Of a stretch of DNA of 52,788 nt, positions 2,362 to 52,364 are shown piece after piece. Source of the DNA: a virus. Both the position numbers and the translations under genes were made by a program. The stretch is from the IMG/VR virus record IMGVR_UViG_3300007775_000137, positions 1 through 52,788 of that record; one strand, given 5' to 3'. Position 1 is the stretch's first letter, and each line of letters starts with the position of its first letter. The notes below the pieces were generated by a model that was not told the DNA's origin, searched no databases, and saw only the letters and a program-made list of their open reading frames with translations.

Positions 2362-3210
2362 CTATTCTGTATTATTTTTTGTAAGCAACACATCAAATAA
2401 GTTTTGTTGACCTGGATTTTGCTCTTTCATTAATGTGGGAGAAAACCCATATGCCTTAATTTCTTCACGGTATTTGGTGTAGTCATCAACCCACTTTTTC
2501 CCATCGGCATATAAATTTTTATCTATTTCAAAACCATATCCCTTACGTCCTAAATTTTCAGCCGCAATAATGGTAGACCCACTTCCAGCAACCGGATCGA
2601 TCACTACGTCGCCTTCGTCTGTAAAGATTTCAATCAACCGCTCTAACAGTTTTACAGGCTTTTGGGTCGGATGTATCTTGCGGTATAACGGACTTTTCGT
2701 ATCGTCACTAATCCAGTTCATAACATTAAAAACCATCTTGCCGTTATTGTTAAACTTTGGCAGCTTGTCACGATAAAGGATTAGCGCGTACTCTGCATTA
2801 CCCACTACCCGCATATTCGCCTTCAGCACCTGCGCACTAAAGTTTTTGCGAAAAACAAGATTAATATAATTATTAATGTCGTACTTTTTGGCTAGCTCTA
2901 TAATTCCCGGCTGTTGCTCAAAGGAACAAAAAACAATCATGCAGGGGGCTTGCCCTCGTTCTTTTGGCTCCTTCTTCATCAGCTTACTACAAAAGTGCAT
3001 GAACTCATTTGAGTTAAAGTTGTCATCCGTTGCAAAAAACTTTTTACCCGCAAGCTCGGATTGCCCATTGCTATTGTCGCCATCGACATACCATTGTGGG
3101 TTAGAGCCGTAGGCGTCAATCCCTATGTTGTACGGAATGTCAGCAATTACCAGTTGAGCGCGTGGTATTTGGTAGCCTTTGAAGTTTTGAAAATGATCTC
3201 TAATTAGCAT
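2362..3210 (-). CDS. beta-class DNA N6-adenine/N4-cytosine methyltransferase
   Basis: 282 aa. The catalytic motif is ADIPYNIG near residue 22, a DPPY-type motif with Ile in the second position. The AdoMet-binding motif DPVAGSGS comes near the C-terminus after HPTQKPVKLLERLI. Motif IV before motif I defines the beta class. It presumably marks phage DNA against host restriction; target specificity cannot be read from sequence. It follows the VWA gene by one base, in an operon started by the regulated leader at 3767-3925. Confidence 0.85.
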   Translation of the reverse strand: MLIRDHFQNFKGYQIPRAQLVIADIPYNIGIDAYGSNPQWYVDGDNSNGQSELAGKKFFATDDNFNSNEFMHFCSKLMKKEPKERGQAPCMIVFCSFEQQPGIIELAKKYDINNYINLVFRKNFSAQVLKANMRVVGNAEYALILYRDKLPKFNNNGKMVFNVMNWISDDTKSPLYRKIHPTQKPVKLLERLIEIFTDEGDVVIDPVAGSGSTIIAAENLGRKGYGFEIDKNLYADGKKWVDDYTKYREEIKAYGFSPTLMKEQNPGQQNLFDVLLTKNNTE

Positions 3211-5056: not shown

Positions 5057-5341
5057 TTACCCGCTATTGTCTCTGGCCTGAAACAACTCATCCAAAGCAT
5101 TCATAATTCGCTTCTCTGCGCTGTTTAGAGCCGCTTCTACATCGTTAACCGCCTGAATGGTAAAACCATCCGCATGTAAGTCTAACATGCCCCTAACGGC
5201 ATTCTGCAAGCTGCCAGGATACTTAATAATTCGCCAGTATTGTTCCTGATTTTTCGCATCTTCACTAGGAATAACAAGTTGCTCAATTTGCCACGCTTTA
5301 TAATTGTAATGCGTAGTCCGGTATTGTGGTTTATCGTCCAT
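5057..5341 (-). CDS. hypothetical protein
   Basis: 94 aa from ATG 5341, which has GGAGGAAAG just upstream, inside the end of the RecB-like gene (11-bp overlap). The N-terminal half holds QYRTTHYNYKAWQIEQ and the C-terminal half is a predicted helix with EAALNSAEKRIMNALDELF. No known domain. Its overlap with the exonuclease gene places it in the recombination operon. Confidence 0.65.
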   Translation of the reverse strand: MDDKPQYRTTHYNYKAWQIEQLVIPSEDAKNQEQYWRIIKYPGSLQNAVRGMLDLHADGFTIQAVNDVEAALNSAEKRIMNALDELFQARDNSG

Positions 5342-6056
5342 TCTTTCCTCCATATTCGCAAATATCCCAAAATCCACAATATTTATGATGACACCACCAA
5401 TTAGCCGGATCGGTCGGTGTGAATACTTCTTTTTGGATTGCTTGCCACACTTCATTAACCAATCCATACAGGGCAAAAACATCCTCATGCGTTCGTGTTG
5501 TTTCCAGAATTTGCACGGCTGGATTTTTCGTTTTGGTGAATACGATATAGCGAAATGTGGCAGGCAATTTAATCATTTGTAATTGTTCTAAAGCTGCTAG
5601 GTAAAATGTTGGTTGCAAACTGGCATCGGCTTGCTCTTGTGACCATTTTTTGCCGCTGGTTTTAATATCAATTGGAATGCCGTCTTTTTGAATCATGTCA
5701 ATGTAGCCAACAATAGGAACCGATACGCCTGGTATATGTAGCTCTGTTTTCATTTCCAATGATTCTGGATTGATGCTTAAACCCTGTATGGTTTGCACAA
5801 TATCGGGTGAGGTAAGCATTTTTTGACCTAGCAGATTCATTTCCTCAGTTAGACCATTTTCTAGCGCATTTTCTTGCCAAGTATCTGCCAATGTAACATC
5901 ATGCTCTAAATGTTGCCTGATTAATTTATGCCACGCGCTGCCAAACAAAAGCGCATCGCTGCTTTCCTCTTGCAGCTTATCCAAATAACGATATTTCCAT
6001 TGTTTGCCGCATTTTAGATATTTACTGATAGATGAGTATGATAAATGGTCAATCAT
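5331..6056 (-). CDS. RecB/Cas4-like PD-(D/E)XK exonuclease with probable Fe-S cluster
   Basis: 241 aa. The motifs in order are SISKYLKCGKQWKYRYLD, SAWHKLIRQHLE, then the nuclease core GYIDMIQKDGIPIDIKTSG (Asp, then D-x-K) and the QPTFYLAAL helix. One Cys in the first motif and three in WWCHHKYCGFWDIC match the four-Cys iron-sulfur pattern of AddB/Cas4-type nucleases. Next to a RecT-like annealing protein it probably supplies the 5'-3' resection partner. Start chosen at ATG 6056; ATG 6068 is possible. Confidence 0.8.
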   Translation of the reverse strand: MIDHLSYSSISKYLKCGKQWKYRYLDKLQEESSDALLFGSAWHKLIRQHLEHDVTLADTWQENALENGLTEEMNLLGQKMLTSPDIVQTIQGLSINPESLEMKTELHIPGVSVPIVGYIDMIQKDGIPIDIKTSGKKWSQEQADASLQPTFYLAALEQLQMIKLPATFRYIVFTKTKNPAVQILETTRTHEDVFALYGLVNEVWQAIQKEVFTPTDPANWWCHHKYCGFWDICEYGGKNGR

Positions 6057-6270
6057 TGGATTCACCATATTTTTCACCGCAAAATGGGCAAAATGAAGCC
6101 ATTACCTTTTTTGCACTGCCGCGCTTACTACTGTCTATTTTCTCTGTAGTAACAAGCGGTTGATCTGGTCTACTTTTTTCCCCAGTGTCCATATTGACCA
6201 TAAATGGTATAACAATACGGGTATTATGTTCTGCCATTTGTTTATTAAATTGTTCAATACATTTACACAT
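6049..6270 (-). CDS. small zinc-ribbon protein
   Basis: 73 aa from ATG 6270, which overlaps the RecT-like stop codon by eight bases. The C-terminal SFCPFCGEKYGESND gives one CxxC pair, and MCKCIE at the N-terminus could give the second. Function unknown. It sits between the annealing protein and the exonuclease and overlaps both. Confidence 0.65.
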   Translation of the reverse strand: MCKCIEQFNKQMAEHNTRIVIPFMVNMDTGEKSRPDQPLVTTEKIDSSKRGSAKKVMASFCPFCGEKYGESND

Positions 6271-28045: not shown

Positions 28046-28256
28046 CAGATTTTGGACATAAGACAACATCAAATCCGCGCTCGGATTTGTTTAATGGAAA
28101 TACTTCGTAAATACAATTTGATAATCCGCTACTGCTGTCTATTATCCAAACATTTCTGTCATCAAGATCGAGAGGTATCATATTAATGATTTTCCTCAGT
28201 TCCCCGATGGTTAGATCGCCATCTTTTGCCGTATAAGGAATACTCAATTTATCCAT
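28038..28256 (-). CDS. hypothetical protein
   Basis: 72 aa. GDLTIGELRKIINMIPLDLDDRNVWIIDSSSG is followed by FDVVLCPKSDD. It resembles phage proteins in which a short helix (TVGELRxxL) precedes a strand with D-x-x-V/I. No function known. Overlaps the glycosyltransferase fusion gene upstream and the DUF1360 gene downstream. Confidence 0.65.
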   Translation of the reverse strand: MDKLSIPYTAKDGDLTIGELRKIINMIPLDLDDRNVWIIDSSSGLSNCIYEVFPLNKSERGFDVVLCPKSDD

Positions 28257-31200
28257 TCAACGCCCGATTAATTTCTTTAATGATGGTCTTGCGCGGCTTA
28301 TCCTGATTTTTCTCAGTTGTCAAAACAACCAATAAATCCTCTGGTTCTGGATTCGTTTTCATCCAAATACGAAAATCATCAATGGTATCAAATTCTGGAA
28401 CCATGACATTTAACGCTGCTTCAACATTGCTTGAATCAATGCCCATGCCAGCAGCTTTAACTGGTACATCTGCCCAAATGTCATCCATAACAATATCATT
28501 GACAGGCAATTTTGGCGCATTACTTTTAATCGGTTCAGTTTTTAATGTGGTATTTCGCTCTGGTAAACTAAACTCAACCCATAGCGGTTGACCTTTTCGT
28601 GTACGTTGTTTCAATGATTCAGCATCTTGAGGATGCACATCAAAAAGCAACATGCCATCATTCGTTAGCATTGTTCGATAGGACTTACCACTTGCCCCGC
28701 CTTTTACTGTAAATTTGCCAGACATCGGCCCTTTGTATTCAAGTATCATACCATCTCCATTTCTAGCTACGAGTGCCTCAAAATCAGATTGTGGCAATTC
28801 TGCCAGTGCTTTGTTATACGGTTTGCCTTGTGGGCATTTTTTGCATGCCATTGGTTTGCGCCTCTTGTAATAATCAATATGTTCATTATAAAGTATTTTC
28901 TTTAGCTTGTCATTTTCTGCTTTCACAGCAGCTTTTTTTTCTGGACTTGCTTCCTCAAACGCTGCATATTTGCGCCTTAACCCGGTATTTGGACGATAGG
29001 CTAAAATGGCTTCCTCAACTCGCAAACCACATAAGCCAATTTGGGCATACATCTTAATCTGATAATCCCAATCTTCCCATGCTGGCATTGTGATATTAAA
29101 ACCACCTATTTTTTCATGCGCCCATCTGGGATATAAAGCCGTTACCGGGTGAATAATCCGTCGCAAAATTACATCATCGCTGTTTATGTCACAAGTAAAA
29201 TCATAGGACTTGTAATAGTCTGGCAATTCATCGCCTTTAGGTACTAGCCAGTCGCCATAAACTACACAATTGCCATCCGTCGATTGCCACGCTTCATACA
29301 GGGTAGACAATGCACCCGGCAATAAATAATCATCAGCATCTAAAAAGACAATCAATCCAGACTTGGCAGCTTTTACACCAGCATTACGCGCTTCACCCGC
29401 ACCACGCGCATCAGGATGTTTTTCTTTTGGTGTCACAATTCGGGCATATGATGCACCCGGTATGGTTGTCCACTTTTCGCCAGTATCATTTACTACAATG
29501 GCTTCCCAGTCTTGGAAATCTTGAGCTATCAAACTATCTAAAGCGTCAATAACATATTCTTTATGGTTTGGCCCTACTGGAATTATCACCGACAATACCG
29601 GGTTTTGATGGTGTCTGACATTCCAATATTTACCGTATCTTGCCCACGAACGAGGCGGCAAACCTTGCGCCCCGAATGGTACTATCTGAGCATTGGGAAT
29701 TTCGCCATTATGCCGCTGGCTTATTTTCTCACCATCTTTAGCTTTATCGGCAAAGCGAAATGGCAACCATGCTAGCCAGTTCGGTTCCTTGCCAAACTTA
29801 CGCATCTCATTAGCTGATTTACTGTCACCACGTAGGCGGTAAATTAAAGTTGATGCCTGCGTAACTTTCTTGGCAATATAACCATAAGAGGTAACACGCG
29901 CCCAAAAAATAGCATCCTCATTACGTGAATCTCGCACACGATACCCGCCGCTGTTTTCTAGCACTTCTCTACGCATCATAGCGGCATATGGTAACTGATT
30001 CAAATGCGCCAATTGCCCACGCCAACTATATTGTTCAGGCGGGAAAAAGTCTTTATCTTTATTAGCATTACGCCGCTGGTTCGTGCCGTCATCGTTGATT
30101 AAATCTAAATGACCATAGGCAATATGAATGCCTTGATCTTTATCCAATTCGTTGGATAAAACCTCTAGCGCATTTGGAGCAAGCATATCATCAGCGTCTA
30201 AATAGATTATGTATTTGCCTTTTGCATGGGTGAATCCAAGGTTTCTTGCACCTGATAACCCTGTATTTTGTGGGGTTTTTAGATAGGTAATTTGCTTGTG
30301 AGGATTGTACAATTCGATTATGTCTAAACTGCTATCAGTTGAACAGTCATCGACGATTAAACATTCATAATCGGTAAAAGTTTGATTCACAACTGAATCT
30401 AAGCAACTTTCAAGATATTTTTCTAGGTTGTAATTCGTAACAATAACACTTACTTTTGGCTCTTTTGGCTGACAATGAATATCATAAACCGACTTAAAAA
30501 CATCGGCATATTGTTCAATCTTATCCCGCCATTGCCACCGTTCAATAACATCTTGCCGTGCGTTTTTGCCAAGTTCATCGCGGTTTTTTAGAGCAAGCCG
30601 AATAGCTTTTTCTAGCTGCTCATAATCGCCCTCTGGAACCAGATAACCCGTTACACCTTGCTTAATAATTTCTACCTGTCCACCAAATGCCCATCCAACT
30701 ACAGGCACGCCACAAGCCATAGCCTCTAATGTGCCAATGCCGAAAGTTTCCCGCGTCGTTGCCAAATAAACACCGGCTTTAGCAACAATGCTTTTCATGC
30801 GCTCATATGGTACAGCATCTAAAATCTTTACATTTTTCCGCTCACCCCCATACGTGGTAACAAATCGCACATCAGGCATAAGACGCGCCAATTCATTTAA
30901 TGGAGCTGGATCGGATATAGGGTCAACCCGTGCCTTATTCCACAATACCCAGTCGGCTGGATTGTCATCAGGTGTAAATTCATCTATGTCTACACCGTGA
31001 TAGATGACTTTTGGGTCAATTAACATGCCCCGTGTAATGGCATTGCGTACCCAGTATGAGGGTGCAGTCGTTGCTTTTGCCCGTTTCATTGATTCGATAA
31101 CCAACTGATTAACGCGGTGCATTGTTGCACCCCAATCATAATCTGCCCAATATAAACCATGACATGAGCTTACAATTGGCTTGTCAAATTTAGTAACCGG

Positions 31201-31371
31201 CATTGCCCCATGTGCATTAATAATATCGGCTTCTTCTGGTGTATTGACAATCTCAATACCAAATTCAGGCAAGTATTTTTGCATGGCTTCTATTACCCGC
31301 CGAATGCCGCCGTCTGGTTTGTCGCCTTCTTGCCCTGTATAGTCAGGAGAAATGTAAAGTTTTATTGTCAT
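28249..31371 (-). CDS. triple glycosyltransferase fusion (GT4-GT2-GT2) with C-terminal extension
   Basis: 1040 aa from ATG 31371 (ATGA overlap). Residues ~1-300: GT4 domain with GVDIDEFTPDDNP, VYLATTRETFGIGTLEAMAC and WAFGGQVEII. Residues ~305-560: GT2 with SVIVTNYNLEKYLESCLDSV, LIVDDCSTD and IIYLDADDM. Residues ~595-840: second GT2 with SVIIPVGPNHKEY, VVNDTGE, VFLDADDYLLPGA and MPAWEDWDY. The last ~200 residues begin with a MACKKCPQGK segment and are not transferase. The DxD motifs are intact. It could assemble several sugar units alone. The extension may dock the enzyme on a virion or partner. Confidence 0.85.
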   Translation of the reverse strand: MTIKLYISPDYTGQEGDKPDGGIRRVIEAMQKYLPEFGIEIVNTPEEADIINAHGAMPVTKFDKPIVSSCHGLYWADYDWGATMHRVNQLVIESMKRAKATTAPSYWVRNAITRGMLIDPKVIYHGVDIDEFTPDDNPADWVLWNKARVDPISDPAPLNELARLMPDVRFVTTYGGERKNVKILDAVPYERMKSIVAKAGVYLATTRETFGIGTLEAMACGVPVVGWAFGGQVEIIKQGVTGYLVPEGDYEQLEKAIRLALKNRDELGKNARQDVIERWQWRDKIEQYADVFKSVYDIHCQPKEPKVSVIVTNYNLEKYLESCLDSVVNQTFTDYECLIVDDCSTDSSLDIIELYNPHKQITYLKTPQNTGLSGARNLGFTHAKGKYIIYLDADDMLAPNALEVLSNELDKDQGIHIAYGHLDLINDDGTNQRRNANKDKDFFPPEQYSWRGQLAHLNQLPYAAMMRREVLENSGGYRVRDSRNEDAIFWARVTSYGYIAKKVTQASTLIYRLRGDSKSANEMRKFGKEPNWLAWLPFRFADKAKDGEKISQRHNGEIPNAQIVPFGAQGLPPRSWARYGKYWNVRHHQNPVLSVIIPVGPNHKEYVIDALDSLIAQDFQDWEAIVVNDTGEKWTTIPGASYARIVTPKEKHPDARGAGEARNAGVKAAKSGLIVFLDADDYLLPGALSTLYEAWQSTDGNCVVYGDWLVPKGDELPDYYKSYDFTCDINSDDVILRRIIHPVTALYPRWAHEKIGGFNITMPAWEDWDYQIKMYAQIGLCGLRVEEAILAYRPNTGLRRKYAAFEEASPEKKAAVKAENDKLKKILYNEHIDYYKRRKPMACKKCPQGKPYNKALAELPQSDFEALVARNGDGMILEYKGPMSGKFTVKGGASGKSYRTMLTNDGMLLFDVHPQDAESLKQRTRKGQPLWVEFSLPERNTTLKTEPIKSNAPKLPVNDIVMDDIWADVPVKAAGMGIDSSNVEAALNVMVPEFDTIDDFRIWMKTNPEPEDLLVVLTTEKNQDKPRKTIIKEINRALNG

Positions 31372-32411
31372 GTTATGCGCCAAACCGTCCTACTTGCATC
31401 CCTACCGTGTACGGGAATTGTTACCAATTTCTCAACCTTGCCATATTGCTTAAGCATATTGTAAACGTCATCATCTGTTTTGTGAACACCTGGGCCATCT
31501 CCGACAAGTTGAGTCTCAAAGAATAATTGATCTGATTTTTCAATCAACCGCATAAGGGTGTATTCTGCCCGATTATAACTTTCATTCCTGGCAATATGGG
31601 CAAATACTGACATAAAAAATATAGTATCAGTTTTATACTTTATCGGACTAGTAGAAACAACATTACCATGACAAATAGGCCAAACGATATTACTTGATTC
31701 CACCTCTCCACTTAACCATACTTCTTTTAAAGCATCGTTGCCATATTTAGGAATACTAACATCTCGATCCATTCCCCAAAACCTGCCCATATCCCATGAT
31801 GCTTTTTCAGTTAAAGCAAAAAGTAAATAGTCACCCTCAGCACATCCAAAATCTATTAAAGAGTTACCCTGTATGCAGGGTCTTATTGCCTGCCACTTAC
31901 GAATATGACGCGATGTGTCAGGCGATAATTCCAAAGCAGCTTGCCACAAATTAAAGGCATCACCCTCCGGTCTTTTATCTGGCCCCGGTTCATTATCAAA
32001 TTTGCTTTGGTGAAAGTCAATCAGCATTGGCTTATTGTTTTTGACAATGATGTTTTTAGTTGAGATGTCACCATGACGGATGCCGTGTTTTTTGAGAGTG
32101 TAAAGAAGTAAAGCGCAATTGCGACGGAAAATTGTTTCATCTGTAACTGGTTCGGACTTACCTAAATCTTCAACTATTAAATGAGATAAACTAGAGGGAG
32201 CATCACTATAATCAAATTTGATAAATTTCGGAGTAAATCCAGTACCATCTAAAGCCTTTAAAAATCTAGCTTCATTTTGAAGAAACATATTTTCAATACC
32301 GGTATAAGCATGTTTGATTATTGTATCAGCATCATGTTGTATTTTTATCCCCTTCAATCCACCAGCCACAAAAGCAGCATCGCCGTCTGTTACTAAATCA
32401 ATTTTGCTCAT
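31368..32411 (-). CDS. kinase-like domain fused to SAM methyltransferase
   Basis: 347 aa. Residues ~1-140 have a protein-kinase/LPS-kinase fold: VEDLGK hinge, HGDISTKNIIV catalytic loop (113-123) and MLIDFHQSK (DFG-like, 129-137). Residues ~180-347 form a class I methyltransferase: SLIDFGCAEGDYL (184-196) and a later FMSVFAHIAR. Such kinase-MTase chains modify glycan ends (phosphorylate then methylate) in O-antigen synthesis (WbdD of E. coli is the known case, in reversed order). It lies directly before the glycosyltransferase fusion, fitting a chain-terminating role. Confidence 0.75.
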   Translation of the reverse strand: MSKIDLVTDGDAAFVAGGLKGIKIQHDADTIIKHAYTGIENMFLQNEARFLKALDGTGFTPKFIKFDYSDAPSSLSHLIVEDLGKSEPVTDETIFRRNCALLLYTLKKHGIRHGDISTKNIIVKNNKPMLIDFHQSKFDNEPGPDKRPEGDAFNLWQAALELSPDTSRHIRKWQAIRPCIQGNSLIDFGCAEGDYLLFALTEKASWDMGRFWGMDRDVSIPKYGNDALKEVWLSGEVESSNIVWPICHGNVVSTSPIKYKTDTIFFMSVFAHIARNESYNRAEYTLMRLIEKSDQLFFETQLVGDGPGVHKTDDDVYNMLKQYGKVEKLVTIPVHGRDASRTVWRIT

Positions 32412-36431: not shown

Positions 36432-36592
36432 TTTTTACTCGCAATTGCTGCTGAAAAAAACATGATGATAAATGATAGAATTAATCCACCCAATGCCGCG
36501 CCTGTGCCGCCTTTCAGAATTAAATACCACAAAATGCCAATGATATTTAATGCCATAAAAATGGCAATGATTGCGCCCATGAATCTAGCCAC
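36428..36592 (-). CDS. 54-aa two-span membrane protein
   Basis: GTG 36592 overlaps the epimerase stop by one base (an ATG at 36580 is also in frame) and the frame ends at 36428. Two hydrophobic segments: GAIIAIFMALNIIGILWYLI and GAALGGLILSFIIMFFSAA, separated by LKGGTG. Basic end ASKK. No family. Position in the operon and exact overlaps support a real gene. Confidence 0.6.
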   Translation of the reverse strand: MARFMGAIIAIFMALNIIGILWYLILKGGTGAALGGLILSFIIMFFSAAIASKK

Positions 36593-37545
36593 TATTCCAC
36601 CCATCCAACCATCTGGTAAAGCTCATTTTGGTCAATCCATCGTATAGGGTTGTTGCTTTGATACCCGGTATAGTGGGGCGAATCCTCAGTAATTGTACCA
36701 ACATTAAACCCGCTAGGATAAAGTAAAAATGCCCGTTCATTTTCTAAAACCAACGCCCTGTGAACTTCCTCTTGCGTTAAAAGCTCCTCGTGAATCTTTT
36801 CCCCAGGTCGCAAGCCGATAACTTTTTGCTTTGCCTCTGGAAACAAATATGAAGCCATTTGTCCCATGCTCAAAGCGGGTAGCATTGGAATGGTAATGGT
36901 TCCAGGATCTTGACGTAAAGTTAATAAAATCAAATCAACAGCCTGATCGACTGTTAACCAGAATCTTGTCATGTTAGGATCGGTTATGCCTATCTCACCT
37001 TCTTCTTTGAACTGTTGCGACCATAAACCCAAAACAGAAGCGGTGGAATCTAACACATTACCATACCGGGTTAAATAAAAGTTAGTTGGATAATCCCACA
37101 ATTGCGCCTCTTGAAAGATGCCTTCCATAAGGTACTTAGTGGCCCCGTATCGGTTTACTGAGTGGCAAACTTTATCCGTGCTAATTCCTATCACTTGCTT
37201 AACACCAGCATAAGTCGCTGCCTGTGCAACATTCAAAGAACCAATAACATTATCACGAATGGTCTGCACCACGTTGAACTCTGCCACTGGGATAATTTTT
37301 GTAGCTGCTGCATGGATGACAACATCATGTCCAGTCATGGCCGTGACAAGATGGTCAAAATCACCAGCCACATCACCCCGTATGGTTTTTACGTGCGGGA
37401 ATTGTCGCTTAAGTTTGGCGTGTTTTACTTCGTCACGGCTGAAAACCGTAATGTTACAATCCCAATTTTCATCTATTGAACGTTGAATAATGCCACGTCC
37501 TAAAAATCCAGCACCGCCAGTTATAAAAATGTTACCTTCTATCAT
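36592..37545 (-). CDS. NAD-dependent sugar-nucleotide epimerase/dehydratase (PseB/CapD-like)
   Basis: 317 aa from ATG 37545. Rossmann motif NIFITGGAGFLGRGI, then VVIHAAATK, VIGISTDKVCHSVNRYGATK (the S/T-x-D-K-x3-Y-x3-K active-site region) and LRPGEKIHEELL at the C-terminus. The SDK and RPGEK signatures are those of UDP-GlcNAc 4,6-dehydratase/C5-epimerases. It would make a modified amino sugar as donor for the nearby glycosyltransferases. Confidence 0.85.
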   Translation of the reverse strand: MIEGNIFITGGAGFLGRGIIQRSIDENWDCNITVFSRDEVKHAKLKRQFPHVKTIRGDVAGDFDHLVTAMTGHDVVIHAAATKIIPVAEFNVVQTIRDNVIGSLNVAQAATYAGVKQVIGISTDKVCHSVNRYGATKYLMEGIFQEAQLWDYPTNFYLTRYGNVLDSTASVLGLWSQQFKEEGEIGITDPNMTRFWLTVDQAVDLILLTLRQDPGTITIPMLPALSMGQMASYLFPEAKQKVIGLRPGEKIHEELLTQEEVHRALVLENERAFLLYPSGFNVGTITEDSPHYTGYQSNNPIRWIDQNELYQMVGWVE

Positions 37546-38345
37546 TATCGTATCCACTCCATCATTGATTTGCGTTCCACTGGATTAGTCACCCAAGACG
37601 GCAATACCGGGTCAAGCTCCAAACATTCCTTTACCGTATAAAGTTTAGGAACGTATATTTTTTGCTCATAACCCCGTTCGCTAATCCAGCGAATCATTTT
37701 GTTGTTACGAATCCATTCTGCCAGTTCTAAAGTTGACCGAACATCATCACCTAAATAGGCCAAAACCGCATCATACTCGCCAGCTTTCCATAAGCCGGGA
37801 GCTTTACCGCCGCTCATGTCAGTTAGTTTTGTGCCATCTGATAGGGTGACATCGTGAAGTTTACCCTGTATGTTTGCGCCTTTTGCCGCCTTGTCTAGTC
37901 CTAGAAAATGGCCGCGTAACGTAACAACCAAAAACATTAAGTCCACATGGTTTAAGGCAAGTTCAGCACATTCTTTATACATGCCTGACTCTTCAGCAAG
38001 GACATCAAAATCAAAACTGAGCGAATTCCACCCGACAATTGTATGACCGTGTTTAACTGCTATCATTAAATCATTGACCACTTGCGCGGCATATCGCTTG
38101 GTCATTTTATTATTCATTTCCCAAAATTGAATGTAATCACCATAATGAACCGCCGCACAAGTAATCCCCAATGGCCTATGATTTTTCCAGTCGCTTCTGA
38201 ACTCGTGAATATTGCCAGTTTTGCCACAATCTTTGCACATTGCGTCCTTATTATTTACTAGCACGTTTTCAGACAAACATACCGGGCATTGCTTATCAGG
38301 TAGCTGCGCTGCAATCTCTAGATCAAAACTTGCCAATCGTTGCAT
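37545..38345 (-). CDS. DEDD-type 3'-5' exonuclease with zinc-ribbon insert
   Basis: 266 aa from ATG 38345 (TAATG overlap; GGGGCAG upstream). LASFDLEIAAQLP gives D-x-E (Exo I). A zinc ribbon follows directly (CPVCLSENVLVNNKDAMCKD, then CG). GWNSLSFDFDVLAEE is Exo II and YLGDDVRSTLELAE Exo III. RNase H-fold exonuclease, proofreading or processing role unknown. There is no polymerase domain. The zinc ribbon inside the fold is unusual. Confidence 0.75.
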   Translation of the reverse strand: MQRLASFDLEIAAQLPDKQCPVCLSENVLVNNKDAMCKDCGKTGNIHEFRSDWKNHRPLGITCAAVHYGDYIQFWEMNNKMTKRYAAQVVNDLMIAVKHGHTIVGWNSLSFDFDVLAEESGMYKECAELALNHVDLMFLVVTLRGHFLGLDKAAKGANIQGKLHDVTLSDGTKLTDMSGGKAPGLWKAGEYDAVLAYLGDDVRSTLELAEWIRNNKMIRWISERGYEQKIYVPKLYTVKECLELDPVLPSWVTNPVERKSMMEWIR

Positions 38346-39036: not shown

Positions 39037-39066
39037 ATTGTAGCACAGGTATATTGTAGATTGCAA
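39037..39066 (-). promoter_or_regulatory. promoter of the RHH-exonuclease-glycan operon
   Basis: TTGCAA (39066-39061), 18-bp spacer ending TGC, TACAAT (39042-39037). The extended -10 and the distance to ATG 39030 predict a leaderless transcript. The -35 abuts a terminator. Confidence 0.65.
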
Positions 39067-45637: not shown

Positions 45638-46123
45638 TTATGAGGATGCCTTTTTGATTGCTTTGCGAACTTCTTTTACTAATTCAGGTTGTAATTGCTC
45701 TGCTATTACAATGTCAAATTCACGCGCCGTTGTACCGGGATGATGTACTATTTTTGCACTTACCATTCTGCCCGAACTTCCTCCACGCCTCGATCCAATT
45801 TTACGCGGTGTCGTTTTAGAAGTAAAGCCAGTTTGAAAACGTAAAGCAGGAGCGCGTTTAGGCGTAATAACATGCGGCTTAGTACCTCTCACAACATAGC
45901 CATAAATCTCATCCATCGTCGAAACGACAGCTACCAATTTACTTGACGTTGCCCTGTCAACCTTAAAGTCTGGCTTTCGTTTCCAAGTGGCTACTGTTTT
46001 GCCAAATTCACGCTCTGCTTTTTTGATAATATCGTTTAGGGTTTTGGCAGACTCCCTATCAAATTTATCTAGGTCGAATATTTTACCTTTTGGTGTAATT
46101 GAGCGTAGGATTATTTGTGCCAT
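45638..46123 (-). CDS. HK97 gp10-like head-tail completion protein
   Basis: 161 aa. Helical start with FDLDKFDRESAKTLNDIIKK, then DEIYGYVVRGTKPHVITPKR (the Y-V-x-x-GT-PH-I-P segment typical of phage minor tail/gp10-like proteins) and PGTTAREFDIVIAEQLQPEL. These proteins join head to tail. It is coupled to the portal gene by TAATG. Confidence 0.65.
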   Translation of the reverse strand: MAQIILRSITPKGKIFDLDKFDRESAKTLNDIIKKAEREFGKTVATWKRKPDFKVDRATSSKLVAVVSTMDEIYGYVVRGTKPHVITPKRAPALRFQTGFTSKTTPRKIGSRRGGSSGRMVSAKIVHHPGTTAREFDIVIAEQLQPELVKEVRKAIKKASS

Positions 46124-48621
46124 TAAACACCTGTGAGCGGTTCATCAGTTTCTACCCAACTACATTGGCACAGCCAGCCGCCGCAATCTAATTCGTGACT
46201 TTTTGGATATGTTCCTAAAGCTCGCCATTGACTACGGGTGAGAACACGCTGGCTATTATCTAGGCAAGAGTTACAATGATCGGTTGGCCCTAAAGCCCAA
46301 CCAATATGATCTTCATCATCTCCACCACGTAAAAACCCAAGCGCGTAAACAGCCAGTAAACCAACTCCCCAAAGCGTTACACGATTATCAATCAGTTCAT
46401 CAGTAGGCGTATCCTCATCACCACCAAAAGCAACAGCCGATAAATATAAACCCGGTATAGCGTCAAGGTTCACTTCTGTTTGGTCTGATATGATTTGCCG
46501 ATCCTCATCTGTCAATTGCGCTATGGTTTTGCCGCTTGCCAAAAGATACGTATTAATAATTTCAGCAGCAACCAATGATTCAGCTTCAATTCTGAACTCA
46601 TCTTCTGTAATTGTACCATTGGCAGCTTCCGCCATTAAGTCAGCTAATTCTGATTCATAATCCGCTGTATCAATTTGTTTGGTTGTCTTTTTTTTTATGG
46701 AACCCTGTATGGTGGTGTGGCTCTCCCCCTTGTCAGAATAAACCAACTCGCCAGATACGCGCATACCATTAAGAGGATTGTCAAGTTTTAGGTATTTCTT
46801 ACCCATACCGGGTTTAAGATATGCAATAGTCATATGTGGATTGTAGGTTGGATGTGTATCCTCGTTTGGCAACTGACTAACAATTGCATTCATTTGCCGT
46901 AATTCTGCCCCGTCAACATTCAACTTCAATACATCAAAATCATCATTCTGGAATAATGCCAAATTGCCAATTTTTATAGTAAGTGGCAATAGTTTTTGAA
47001 TCTGTGAAGTAATTTGCTTTGGTGTCACACTATCCAAAAATCCATACTTAACTGTTACATGGGAATCTGTCACAATTGGTGAACTTGACCATGATTCTGG
47101 TGGCTGAAACAAATCATCACTATCTAAATTAGCAGCAATTAACGAAGCGGCATGTCTAATATGATCAGGCATCATTAACATTAAGCATCCATATTCTTCA
47201 TTTTCCTTCGCTCTAATTTCCGCTGGTATCTGTTCCGGTTGCATTTCTGCCGTATCGGTTGACGGCGTATTGTTTGCCTCATTTAGTTCTGATTCAGTTG
47301 CGGCTTGCTCATCATCCGTTGCCACAATATCGGGTGTCACATCTGTAGTATTCAAAAGTGCCATGTACTCAGGCTTTAAGATGCCTTGGTCTGCCATCAT
47401 TTGATGGATAACTGGCAACGACAAAATGCCTTGACCCTTATCATAATAAGTTGAAAATGTTTTTGCCTGTTTATCTTCTAATTCAGCAGCTTGAATATCT
47501 GACTCAATGTCTTTTTCATCAAAAGCAAATGTCACCGATTGCGGCATGATGCCATTAAAATTTAGTTTATGTTCCCATAGCTTGACATCAGTTTCGCGCC
47601 CTTTGCCGCGTGACTTACGGTCTAGCACGTCACTTTGTTGACCGCTGCCCAAGCTGCCAGATGATAATGGCGCAAAATCCTGATAATCAGCACCAGCGGC
47701 CATTGCAATTTGGGCAATGTACCAGCGCAATGTAGTATCCTCGTCGAATCCATCAGGAACACTACGCAAGTCGATTGAAGCCGTGCTAACAGTCGAATTA
47801 GGGTCAAGACTACCAATAATCGTTGGCAACATGAAACGGCTATAGCCTTGATTGTCGGCACTCATTTGGTCATCGGCTAATTTGTCGTTGATTAGTTTAG
47901 TCTGAACACCTGAAACAAAATGTATCTCGCCAGGATTACGCCCTGCTATTTTTTCCCGTTTATAGATTCCAAAGTCTTTTATAATTTGGGCTGCTCTTAA
48001 GACGCGACTTAAGAAGCAAACCTGCAAACTATTCATTTCCTCAATTGGCGACGGCATATCCTCAAAAGTCAATACCTGATACCATGCTAATTTATGCTCT
48101 ATGCCATCACGATCCCAGTAAATGACAGGGGTTTCGGGGATGCCAGTTCTTACGCATCTACCTGCGTCCAAATGCGCTAGATTCAATACCGGGCTATTTG
48201 GCGCGTCTTCTTGCCGAATGACTTCTACAAATGCGCCATTGTCTTGTGTTAGTTGGTCAGTAAGTACTTTAATTCTTAGGTCAAGCCAGCCTTTGCCCAA
48301 GTTGGATGACTGTAGCATACGCTGCAAAATGCCAACCGTGCGAGGAGGCCCGTCAAGCGACCATGACATATTGGCACGCGCTGCCACAATCGTTTGAATG
48401 GCACTTGCTATAATCGGTTCAGTAGGCCAAAACCCCCGCAGCTTCCTATCACGTAATCTGACATTGCGTCCCCAGGCTGGCAAGTCATCAGCAAATGACG
48501 AAACATTGATAACAAAAACATCACTACCCGGTATTGTTTGTTGGTCTGGTATCTTTTGAACCGTACGATCCAATATCCGATCATCTATGAGTGCTTTTTC
48601 TTGCGTACCATTTTTGGTCAT
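46123..48621 (-). CDS. portal protein fused to a 2H phosphoesterase and a minor-head-like C-terminus
   Basis: 832 aa from ATG 48621 (a TTG at 48642 is inside a hairpin). Residues ~20-430 are a phage portal: FWPTEPIIASAIQTIVAARA, DQLTQDNGAFVEVIRQED, WYQVLTFEDMPSPIEEMNSL. Residues ~470-640 form a 2H phosphoesterase (2'-5' RNA ligase-like) with SHVTVKYG (His 521) and PHMTIAYL (His 596), both HxT motifs intact. The C-terminal ~170 residues end with GPTDHCNSCLDNSQRV and CGGWLCQCSW, resembling SPP1 gp7/MuF-type minor head proteins. Such a triple fusion is unusual. Confidence 0.8.
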   Translation of the reverse strand: MTKNGTQEKALIDDRILDRTVQKIPDQQTIPGSDVFVINVSSFADDLPAWGRNVRLRDRKLRGFWPTEPIIASAIQTIVAARANMSWSLDGPPRTVGILQRMLQSSNLGKGWLDLRIKVLTDQLTQDNGAFVEVIRQEDAPNSPVLNLAHLDAGRCVRTGIPETPVIYWDRDGIEHKLAWYQVLTFEDMPSPIEEMNSLQVCFLSRVLRAAQIIKDFGIYKREKIAGRNPGEIHFVSGVQTKLINDKLADDQMSADNQGYSRFMLPTIIGSLDPNSTVSTASIDLRSVPDGFDEDTTLRWYIAQIAMAAGADYQDFAPLSSGSLGSGQQSDVLDRKSRGKGRETDVKLWEHKLNFNGIMPQSVTFAFDEKDIESDIQAAELEDKQAKTFSTYYDKGQGILSLPVIHQMMADQGILKPEYMALLNTTDVTPDIVATDDEQAATESELNEANNTPSTDTAEMQPEQIPAEIRAKENEEYGCLMLMMPDHIRHAASLIAANLDSDDLFQPPESWSSSPIVTDSHVTVKYGFLDSVTPKQITSQIQKLLPLTIKIGNLALFQNDDFDVLKLNVDGAELRQMNAIVSQLPNEDTHPTYNPHMTIAYLKPGMGKKYLKLDNPLNGMRVSGELVYSDKGESHTTIQGSIKKKTTKQIDTADYESELADLMAEAANGTITEDEFRIEAESLVAAEIINTYLLASGKTIAQLTDEDRQIISDQTEVNLDAIPGLYLSAVAFGGDEDTPTDELIDNRVTLWGVGLLAVYALGFLRGGDDEDHIGWALGPTDHCNSCLDNSQRVLTRSQWRALGTYPKSHELDCGGWLCQCSWVETDEPLTGV

Positions 48622-48641
48622 AAACTTTACCAGTAAGCGCA

Positions 48642-48675
48642 AATAGCCTAACCCCGCCTGACGGAGTAGGCTATT
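48642..48675 (-). other. leader hairpin of the portal operon, UCAGG loop
   Basis: AATAGCCTA / TAGGCTATT outer stem with an inner CTCCG-TCAGG-CGGGG hairpin, about 20 bases before the portal start. There is no long T-run. It shares the UCAGG loop with 26262-26297 and 44940-44967. An AT-rich promoter-like stretch lies upstream (48680-48705). Confidence 0.6.
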
Positions 48676-48708
48676 AATTTAATCCAATATAATTAATATA
48701 TGATAACA

Positions 48709-48738
48709 CAAAAAAAGCTCCATCGTAAAGACAGAGCC
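48709..48738 (-). terminator. terminator downstream of the CRISPR array
   Basis: On the minus strand GGCTC and GAGCT pair around a 13-nt loop and are followed by TTTTTTTG. It lies 30 bp beyond the last repeat and only works for minus-strand transcription, which supports the array being read in the same direction as the TnpB-like gene. Confidence 0.75.
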
Positions 48739-48768
48739 TGTAAATATTAATTAGAGTTTTGGATCGTA

Positions 48769-48982
48769 CAAACTACCCACGCGCCTGTAGGATAAACTTG
48801 GCGTTGAAAGTTAGCCGCTTGTGAAGTAGCAAACCACCCACGCGCCTGTAGGATAAACGTGATTTCGTGCTACAATAGCTCATGATGATTCCAAACCACC
48901 CACGCGCCTGTAGGATAAACGAGGAGTGAGAAATGGAAAATGTGACAACTTTTCAAACCACCCACGCGCCTGTAGGATAAAC
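48769..48982 (-). CRISPR. mini CRISPR array: four 29-bp repeats, three spacers
   Basis: Repeats at 48769-48797, 48830-48858, 48892-48920 and 48954-48982; spacers of 32, 33 and 33 bp. Three repeats are identical. The one at 48769 has a single change (C to T at its sixth base) and is therefore the likely distal end of the array. Read on the minus strand the repeat begins GTTTATCC and ends GGTGGTTTG, and CCUAC pairs with GUGGG (one G-U) around AGGCGC. Mutated distal repeat, terminator and hairpin all favour minus-strand transcription from the TnpB side. The length pattern is also that of type I-E arrays, and the plus-strand end GGATAAAC recalls their repeats, so use of host Cascade is the alternative. 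Confidence 0.9.
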
Positions 48983-49083
48983 CCTTGAGTATTACCCCTA
49001 TATACAGTTGTTAAGTGGGTGTACATATGAGTTACCCCATATGTGCTGGTGGTCTTAATACCGAAGTATGCCACCTTCCTGAT
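48983..49083 (-). ncRNA. structured RNA between TnpB-like gene and array (omegaRNA/tracrRNA/leader candidate)
   Basis: In the 101 nt between the stop codon and the first repeat the minus strand can form GGTGG...CCACC enclosing ATAC-TTCG-GTAT (UUCG tetraloop, 49048-49075), then ACATATG-8 nt-CATATGT (49023-49044). CACCCAC (49021-49015) is complementary to GTGGGTG in every repeat, a 7-nt anti-repeat. In TnpB systems the omegaRNA lies exactly here, at the 3' end of tnpB, and guide sequence follows. The region ends ACTCAAGG before the repeat; TCAA is the right-end cleavage site of IS608. Confidence 0.6.
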
Positions 49084-50262
49084 TCACAGTGAGCGTTCAC
49101 TACCGCCCAACTCCACAGGCAATTCCCCGCGCTTCACAGGTTCAGCTAAAGCCGCTAAATTCATAGCAGCATTAAGGTCTCTATCCATTTCTGCCCCGCA
49201 ATCAGGGCATTTATAAATCCGCATGGCTAATGTCAATTCAGAATTGATACAGCCACAGGAGCTGCATGTTTTGGAAGATGCAAACCATCTATCCGCTTTC
49301 AAAACCTCAATCCCATTCCATGCTGCTTTATATTCAATTTGTCGGTGCAATTCAGACATTGAAGCATCACTAACGGCTTTAGCCAGATTGTGATTTTTAA
49401 CCATGCCCTTAACGTTCAAATCTTCAATGACTACCACCGAAGGCCGTTTATGTTCGGTTACATACTTGCTTACATTGTGCAGGTTATGCGCCCGTTTGTT
49501 AGCTATCTTTTGGTGAAGCTTGGCAATCTTAGCTTTTGTTTTGGTCCGGTTAGAACTGCCTTTTTCACGTCGTGATAATTCGCGCTGTAAACGGGCTAAC
49601 TTTTTCTCGTATGTTTTCAGCACCTTGTCATTAGGAAACTCTTTCCCATCTGAGCAAACCGCCAATGATTTAATGCCAACGTCAACGCCTAGCGGTTCAC
49701 CCATTGCCGGTACGGGTTCGTCTGTTTCTTGTTCGACTTGAAAGCTAATAAACCATTCCCCGGCACTTTCCGAAAGTGTCACAAAGTTTATTTTTACATC
49801 CTCTGGAATATAATTAGATTCAGCTAAATTTACCCAACCAATACGGGGTAACTTAACACGCCCATTTTCAACACGAATAGAACCACGTAAAACAAATGAT
49901 TGCTTGTCTTTGTATCTGCTTTTGAATTTCGGAAATCCTGTTTCTTTGCCGCCTTTACCCTGTTTAATGCGACGGAAAAAGTTTTGATAAGCAATGTCCA
50001 CATGGTCAAACTCTTCTTGCATTATGCAATATGGGTATTCACGAATCCATGGACAAATCTCATCTTTGGTAGCATTAAAACGCCTCTTTTGCTCAAACTT
50101 GTTTGGTTTACCGCCAGCTTCATAAGTGGCGATCCTATCGGCCAACGCCCAATTAAAAACATACCGAGCAGCTCCACAACAGCCGCCAAAATAACGCCGC
50201 TGCTTTGCGGTTGGTCTAAGTTTTGTCTTGTAGGCTTTTAAAATCGTGATATGATTTATCAT
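49084..50262 (-). CDS. tnpB: TnpB/Cas12-like RNA-guided nuclease
   Basis: 392 aa from ATG 50262 (AAAAGGA upstream; TTG at 50280 overlaps that site). It has the HTH/helical N-terminus KLRPTAKQRRYFGGCCGAAR and FPKFKSRYKDKQSFVLRGS, then RuvC-I PLGVDVGIKSLAV, a Lys/Arg-rich bridge, RuvC-II VVVIEDLNVKGM, the zinc finger CSSCG...CPDCG, and RuvC-III EMDRDLNAAMNLA. The D-E-D triad is intact, so it should cut DNA. No TnpA is adjacent. Downstream are a structured RNA and a CRISPR array in the same direction. That pairing recalls minimal type V-U/Cas12 systems, which arose from TnpB. Confidence 0.9.
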   Translation of the reverse strand: MINHITILKAYKTKLRPTAKQRRYFGGCCGAARYVFNWALADRIATYEAGGKPNKFEQKRRFNATKDEICPWIREYPYCIMQEEFDHVDIAYQNFFRRIKQGKGGKETGFPKFKSRYKDKQSFVLRGSIRVENGRVKLPRIGWVNLAESNYIPEDVKINFVTLSESAGEWFISFQVEQETDEPVPAMGEPLGVDVGIKSLAVCSDGKEFPNDKVLKTYEKKLARLQRELSRREKGSSNRTKTKAKIAKLHQKIANKRAHNLHNVSKYVTEHKRPSVVVIEDLNVKGMVKNHNLAKAVSDASMSELHRQIEYKAAWNGIEVLKADRWFASSKTCSSCGCINSELTLAMRIYKCPDCGAEMDRDLNAAMNLAALAEPVKRGELPVELGGSERSL

Positions 50263-50287
50263 GCTTCGATTCCTTTTCAATCGGAGG

Positions 50288-50317: not shown

Positions 50318-50353
50318 AATTTCTATTATTATAACAAACAACACAGTAAAACA

Positions 50354-50381
50354 CAAAAAAGCCCTTCGGTAAAGAAGGGCT
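50354..50381 (-). terminator. terminator of the small-gene operon upstream of tnpB
   Basis: AGCCCTTC and GAAGGGCT (8 bp, loop 6) followed by TTTTTTG on the minus strand, eight bases after the stop at 50389. Confidence 0.9.
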
Positions 50382-52044: not shown

Positions 52045-52150
52045 TTGCCAGTCGTATGTCGTGCCAGTTGAGGGGGGAGTTAAAAGGGGGAGTGTTGAGA
52101 AGTATCCTTGCAAGGTCATTGTAGCATAAACCAGGTATGGGATGCAATAA

Positions 52151-52261: not shown

Positions 52262-52364
52262 ATTAGCACCTCCTGTTAAGTTTGTTTGATTGTAGCAAAC
52301 TATACAGGGTTTTGATAGGTGACGTTTGTCATGAATTAGGTAGACAATAAAAAGCTCAACACCA

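Follow-up and report, generated by a model that had tools for sequence, protein, structure and literature searches.

Phage mini-arrays without Cas proteins of their own are a known kind of system. Viral mini-arrays act against related viruses, as has been shown for archaeal viruses, and leaderless examples in phages may stem from recombination with host arrays (PMC6858448). Huge phages carry compact arrays that also lack Cas proteins of their own; use of the host's Cas proteins has been proposed for these, and the authors suggested that some of their spacers block promoters (PMC7162821). Solitary repeat units in phages serve as RNA anti-CRISPRs (Racrs), with type I-E among the systems that they target (PMC10651486).

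A three-spacer array in a phage fragment

The window analysed here is a fragment, a virus record that is linear and 52,788 bases long, and it contains a real, well-formed mini-CRISPR array (48769-48982; Table 1). Four near-identical 29-nt repeats (CAAACCACCCACGCGCCTGTAGGATAAAC on the plus strand) enclose three spacers of 32, 33 and 33 nt, with start-to-start repeat distances of 61, 62 and 62 nt. Three of the repeats are identical, and the fourth, at 48769, differs by one substitution (CAAACT for CAAACC, plus strand). The direct repeats thus fall within the 21-40 nt range of CRISPR arrays, are regularly spaced and are separated by unique spacers, the lack of mutual similarity among the three spacers counting in favour of a genuine mini-array. 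No second such array was found across the window.

The genomic context is that of a phage, with tape-measure, portal-like and capsid-like genes and nearly all ORFs on the minus strand. No CRISPR-specific cas gene, whether for an effector or for adaptation, was recognised among the proteins scanned (the main ORFs), and PADLOC detected neither a Cas effector complex nor Cas1/Cas2 among ten ORFs. Within the ORFs scanned in this fragment, the locus is a small viral array without cas genes, and it contributes a clean example, Cas-less and with three spacers, from a tailed phage. We consider it probable that this is a phage-borne mini-array that depends on host Cas proteins, no cas genes being recognised in the fragment, and that it is directed against competing mobile elements. 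Weighing against this reading, no leader was recognised beside the array, and a fragment such as this leaves room for cas genes beyond its ends.

Table 1. Features of the array and its surroundings (positions in the window).
Feature	Position	Strand	Remarks
Intrinsic terminator	48715..48739	-	past the array
CRISPR repeat	48769..48797	-	one substitution; likely leader-distal if read on minus
Spacer 1	48798..48829	-	32 nt; no match found
CRISPR repeat	48830..48858	-	29 nt; minus-strand RNA GUUUAUCCUACAGGCGCGUGGGUGGUUUG
Spacer 2	48859..48891	-	33 nt; TGCTACAAT at 48868-48876 and ATG at 48882-48884 on plus
CRISPR repeat	48892..48920	-	29 nt
Spacer 3	48921..48953	-	33 nt; GAGGAG at 48921-48926 and ATG at 48933-48935 on plus, MENVTTF
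CRISPR repeat	48954..48982	-	29 nt; closest of the four to tnpB
Structured tnpB 3' region	49019..49110	-	omega-RNA-like; approximate ends; likeness to L007/L020
TnpB gene	49084..50280	-	398 aa; OrfB_IS605 and TNB zinc-ribbon domains
Extended -10-like TGTTATAAT	50328..50336	-	ahead of tnpB
Intrinsic terminator	50360..50381	-	separates upstream DUF7448 gene from tnpB

With the known virus-borne mini-arrays, those of SPV1/SPV2 and the leaderless ones of phages (PMC6858448), the array shares its few spacers, its cas-free flanks and its intergenic position in a virus genome. It differs in having three spacers where those have one or two, in that no protospacer in a related virus was found, either in the related phage contig L005 or in the databases searched, and in that no leader was recognised. 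The compact huge-phage arrays (PMC7162821) resemble it as small phage arrays that may use host Cas proteins. Racrs (PMC10651486) likewise bring CRISPR repeats into phages that have no cas genes, but they are solitary repeats, whereas the array described here carries spacers. This difference bears on the idea that the repeats merely act as decoys for host Cas6 or Cascade and that the spacers are irrelevant. Solitary phage repeats do act in this way, type I-E systems included (PMC10651486); the known cases are nonetheless single repeats, and a decoy would not need as many as four repeats, nor three spacers that are distinct and of full length, so that we regard an RNA anti-CRISPR as quite improbable here.

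Repeat type, reading direction and the adjacent tnpB

A type I-E array, or one closely related, is suggested by the lengths of the repeats and spacers, the period and a partial resemblance in sequence. Type I-E arrays share the 29-nt repeat with a short stem, the 32/33-nt spacers, the 61-62-nt period and part of the repeat sequence; here the repeat has diverged and no cas operon was recognised in the window. In comparison with reference repeats, the repeat outscored nearly all of its own shuffles against that of the E. coli I-E system in the plus orientation (0.002) and against that of the S. thermophilus I-E system in the minus orientation (0 of 1000 shuffles), which speaks for the preferred mini-array reading. 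Type I-C fitted nearly as well (0.004), which counts against it. The two I-E comparisons also conflict over orientation, the former suggesting plus and the latter minus.

Three weak signs favour reading the array on the minus strand. The repeat with the substitution is the one farthest from tnpB, the repeat makes five pairs in its stem when read on the minus strand but has a C-A mismatch on the plus strand, and a terminator stops minus-strand transcripts just beyond the array. The stem (CCUAC/GUGGG, -5.4 kcal/mol) is no better than those of shuffled sequences, and the terminator is no proof of direction because L005 has a closely similar one without an array. This second terminator lies at about 8451-8480 of L005, upstream of the portal gene, and its retention there marks the element as part of the phage backbone; a role for the 48715-48739 terminator as a component of the array was ruled out on this ground. 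A TCTTTAC loop is common to the L005 terminator and to both terminators in Table 1, and such terminators are seemingly the house style of this phage group. A separate hairpin-like stretch, GCCTAACCCCGCCTGACGGAGTAGGC, lies upstream of the portal gene (48641-48680, plus strand). Its pairing with the minus-strand repeat surpassed that of all 100 mononucleotide shuffles, although this was one of ten pairings tried and may be chance; as the pairing involves the plus strand, it would need RNA from the opposite strand.

The array lies beside a gene for an IS605-family TnpB. As in ISDra2 TnpB, we found the family's domains, TnpBs as the closest solved relatives (8h1j and 8bf8 among them, together with an AI-designed nuclease of the TnpB family) and a 3' RNA layout of the same kind; the locus differs from ISDra2 in that no TnpA was recognised alongside and a CRISPR array lies downstream. 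The RuvC D-E-D motifs (GVDVG, IEDLN and DRDLNAA, identified by eye) accompany the OrfB and zinc-ribbon domains, and the 3' region has, also by eye, the order CAGGAA-stem-AGCAC-stem seen in two relatives (L007 and L020), the likeness expected of a 3' omega RNA. It thus seems that TnpB carries a guide-RNA scaffold of its own. A search of Rfam gave no match. That the CRISPR repeat itself is the TnpB guide was dropped as a candidate, the omega-RNA-like scaffold seeming to end roughly 30-40 nt before the first repeat.

This neighbourhood invites the reading that TnpB and the array form a small type V-U-like CRISPR system in which TnpB uses the array's RNAs. The array begins about 100 nt past tnpB on the same strand, the pair is flanked by two terminators, the acidic motifs of TnpB are present, and the protein matches Cas12u4 and Cas12f models strongly. 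Those same models are, however, matched by seven TnpB-relative controls, on which basis identification of the protein as a Cas12 was ruled out, and an array directly downstream of tnpB occurred at none of 56 TnpB-relative loci. We thus found neither an effector distinct from ordinary TnpB nor the consistent array association that would mark a type V-U or Cas12f-like system. Furthermore, TnpB has an omega-RNA-like 3' region of its own, the repeat and spacer lengths have a class 1 look, and no anti-repeat or tracrRNA rose above shuffles between tnpB and the array. Taken with these points, a V-U-like partnership is very unlikely. At one locus in a cyanobacterial genome (L027, 3575-3740), three repeats of GTAGGTTTGTAGTGAGGACTTT spaced at 71 nt occur about 1 kb from a tnpB.

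At the corresponding place L005 has neither array nor tnpB. The simplest view is of a mobile TnpB gene that shares one variable site with the array, amid phage backbone genes. The absence of both from L005 would also suit a piece of a host chromosomal array acquired by recombination and without function in the phage, a reading to which the unrecognised leader and the proposed host-array origin of leaderless phage mini-arrays (PMC6858448) lend further weight. The array is intact, though, with a single substitution across four repeats, and we hold such a functionless remnant to be unlikely.

For a mini-array that works through the host, we infer the following course of expression. Minus-strand transcription would proceed by read-through from tnpB, for which TGTTATAAT is a possible promoter, to the conserved phage terminator; alternatively, it could start from an unrecognised leader. 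A class 1 Cas6 of the host would process the crRNAs, which would then be loaded into a host Cascade, most likely one of type I-E-like character, and directed to the DNA of the competing phages or mobile elements that supplied the spacers.

Spacer content and target searches

Two of the three spacers have the look of gene starts on the plus strand. In spacer 3 the sequence reads GAGGAG-TGAGAA-ATG-GAA-AAT-GTG-ACA-ACT-TTT, and the ribosome-binding site, start codon and M-E-N-V-T-T-F frame described in the initial annotation are all present, the gap between GAGGAG and ATG being six bases and not the seven given there. Spacer 2 does contain the motif followed by an ATG, as TGCTACAAT-AGCTC-ATG, with a gap of five bases where six had been reported; the layout that it was said to share with the leaderless promoter-start, which lies at 39045-39028, is accordingly only approximate, with gaps of five and six bases. 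The reading frames that open in spacers 2 and 3 run for only 14-15 codons before a stop within the array, and were therefore rejected as genes in place.

The motif in spacer 2 is enriched in the window, with five matches against 0.9 expected and none of 100 shuffles reaching five. Three of its four other matches lie on the coding strand (39037-39045, 52118-52126 and 52289-52297, all minus), and the one at 52297 precedes AGGAGG and an ATG. Given this enrichment and placement, TGCTACAAT is a plausible extended -10-like box of the phage's host, and the presence in spacer 2 of a -10-like motif enriched in the phage counts in favour of the mini-array reading.

On the idea raised in the initial annotation, the array would be aimed at gene starts: in related phages, the promoters and start codons of key genes would be cut or blocked by its crRNAs. 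Start-like motifs in spacers 2 and 3 lie on the same strand, and TGCTACAAT recurs as a -10-like motif in the phage. When three 32/33-nt pieces were drawn at random from the rest of the window, the share of draws in which at least two of the three passed a strict test, RBS-ATG or extended -10-ATG, was 0.035%. Since the criteria were set after the spacers had been seen, these chance figures are suggestive only, and under a looser start-like test the proportion rose to 5.4%. Neither motif occurs in spacer 1, start-like pieces arise in any case in gene-dense phage DNA, and no protospacer was found in GenBank phages, plasmids, IMG/VR or L005. Nor do the surroundings lend direct support to antisense or CRISPRi-like action, the sole nearby nuclease being TnpB, with its own omega-RNA-like region. 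The motifs make gene starts a fair lead that is suggestive of somewhat more than chance; as an account of the array, an aim at gene starts is distinctly improbable. More improbable still is that the spacers were drawn by preference from the promoter and translation-start regions of rival phages, or came under selection for such regions, in which case even a host complex that only binds would silence key genes. Should the spacers of such arrays indeed prefer gene starts, viral mini-arrays would serve to silence genes and not only to cut.

As initially reported, the window holds no perfect match to any spacer, and the best non-self similarity of any spacer, in the window or in L005, is 22 of 33 letters, which equals that of shuffled sequence. 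GenBank phages yielded no protospacer (best E 0.5) and plasmids no match. IMG/VR, scanned with spacer cores of about 19-22 bases that were exact or wobble-tolerant (spacer 3 by one pattern, covering its start in wobble-tolerant form, spacer 2 by two patterns and spacer 1 by one), gave none, in a scan blind to targets with changes in the core. That none of the spacers has a protospacer in the databases searched counts against the mini-array reading.

Host and phage backbone

The GTDB r220 species genomes scanned did not contain the repeat, nor, with three mismatches allowed, did 398 and 292 genomes from the two phyla represented by L023 and L028. Both results count against a host-dependent mini-array because known viral mini-arrays share the repeat of their host; absence from the GTDB species genomes scanned may also point to an unsampled host. 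Two matches to the repeat in IMG/VR were set aside as chance, arrays being absent there. The portal, capsid, PseB-like and methylase genes did not indicate a consistent host.

L005 is related to the phage through its portal-like and capsid-like genes, which match at 67% and 85-86% identity, and a capsid scan for further related phages with two peptide patterns returned L005 alone again. In the portal-like protein (46123-48642, minus), the C-terminal half includes a fused 2H phosphoesterase domain of the 2'-5' RNA ligase-like kind, and the protein's L005 relative is alike across residues 15-839. Elsewhere, a PD-(D/E)XK nuclease (5331-6077, minus) gave weak Cas4 matches; we take it to be a nuclease of the kind common in phages. 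The DNA methylase at 2362-3210 (minus) is about 70% identical to methylases of Gordonia phage GMA4 and of Campylobacter prophages, a likeness that suggests transfer between distant hosts. Finally, the fragment encodes a large double glycosyltransferase (28249-31383, minus) and a PseB-like sugar dehydratase (36592-37557, minus), which perhaps glycosylate the virion or the host surface.
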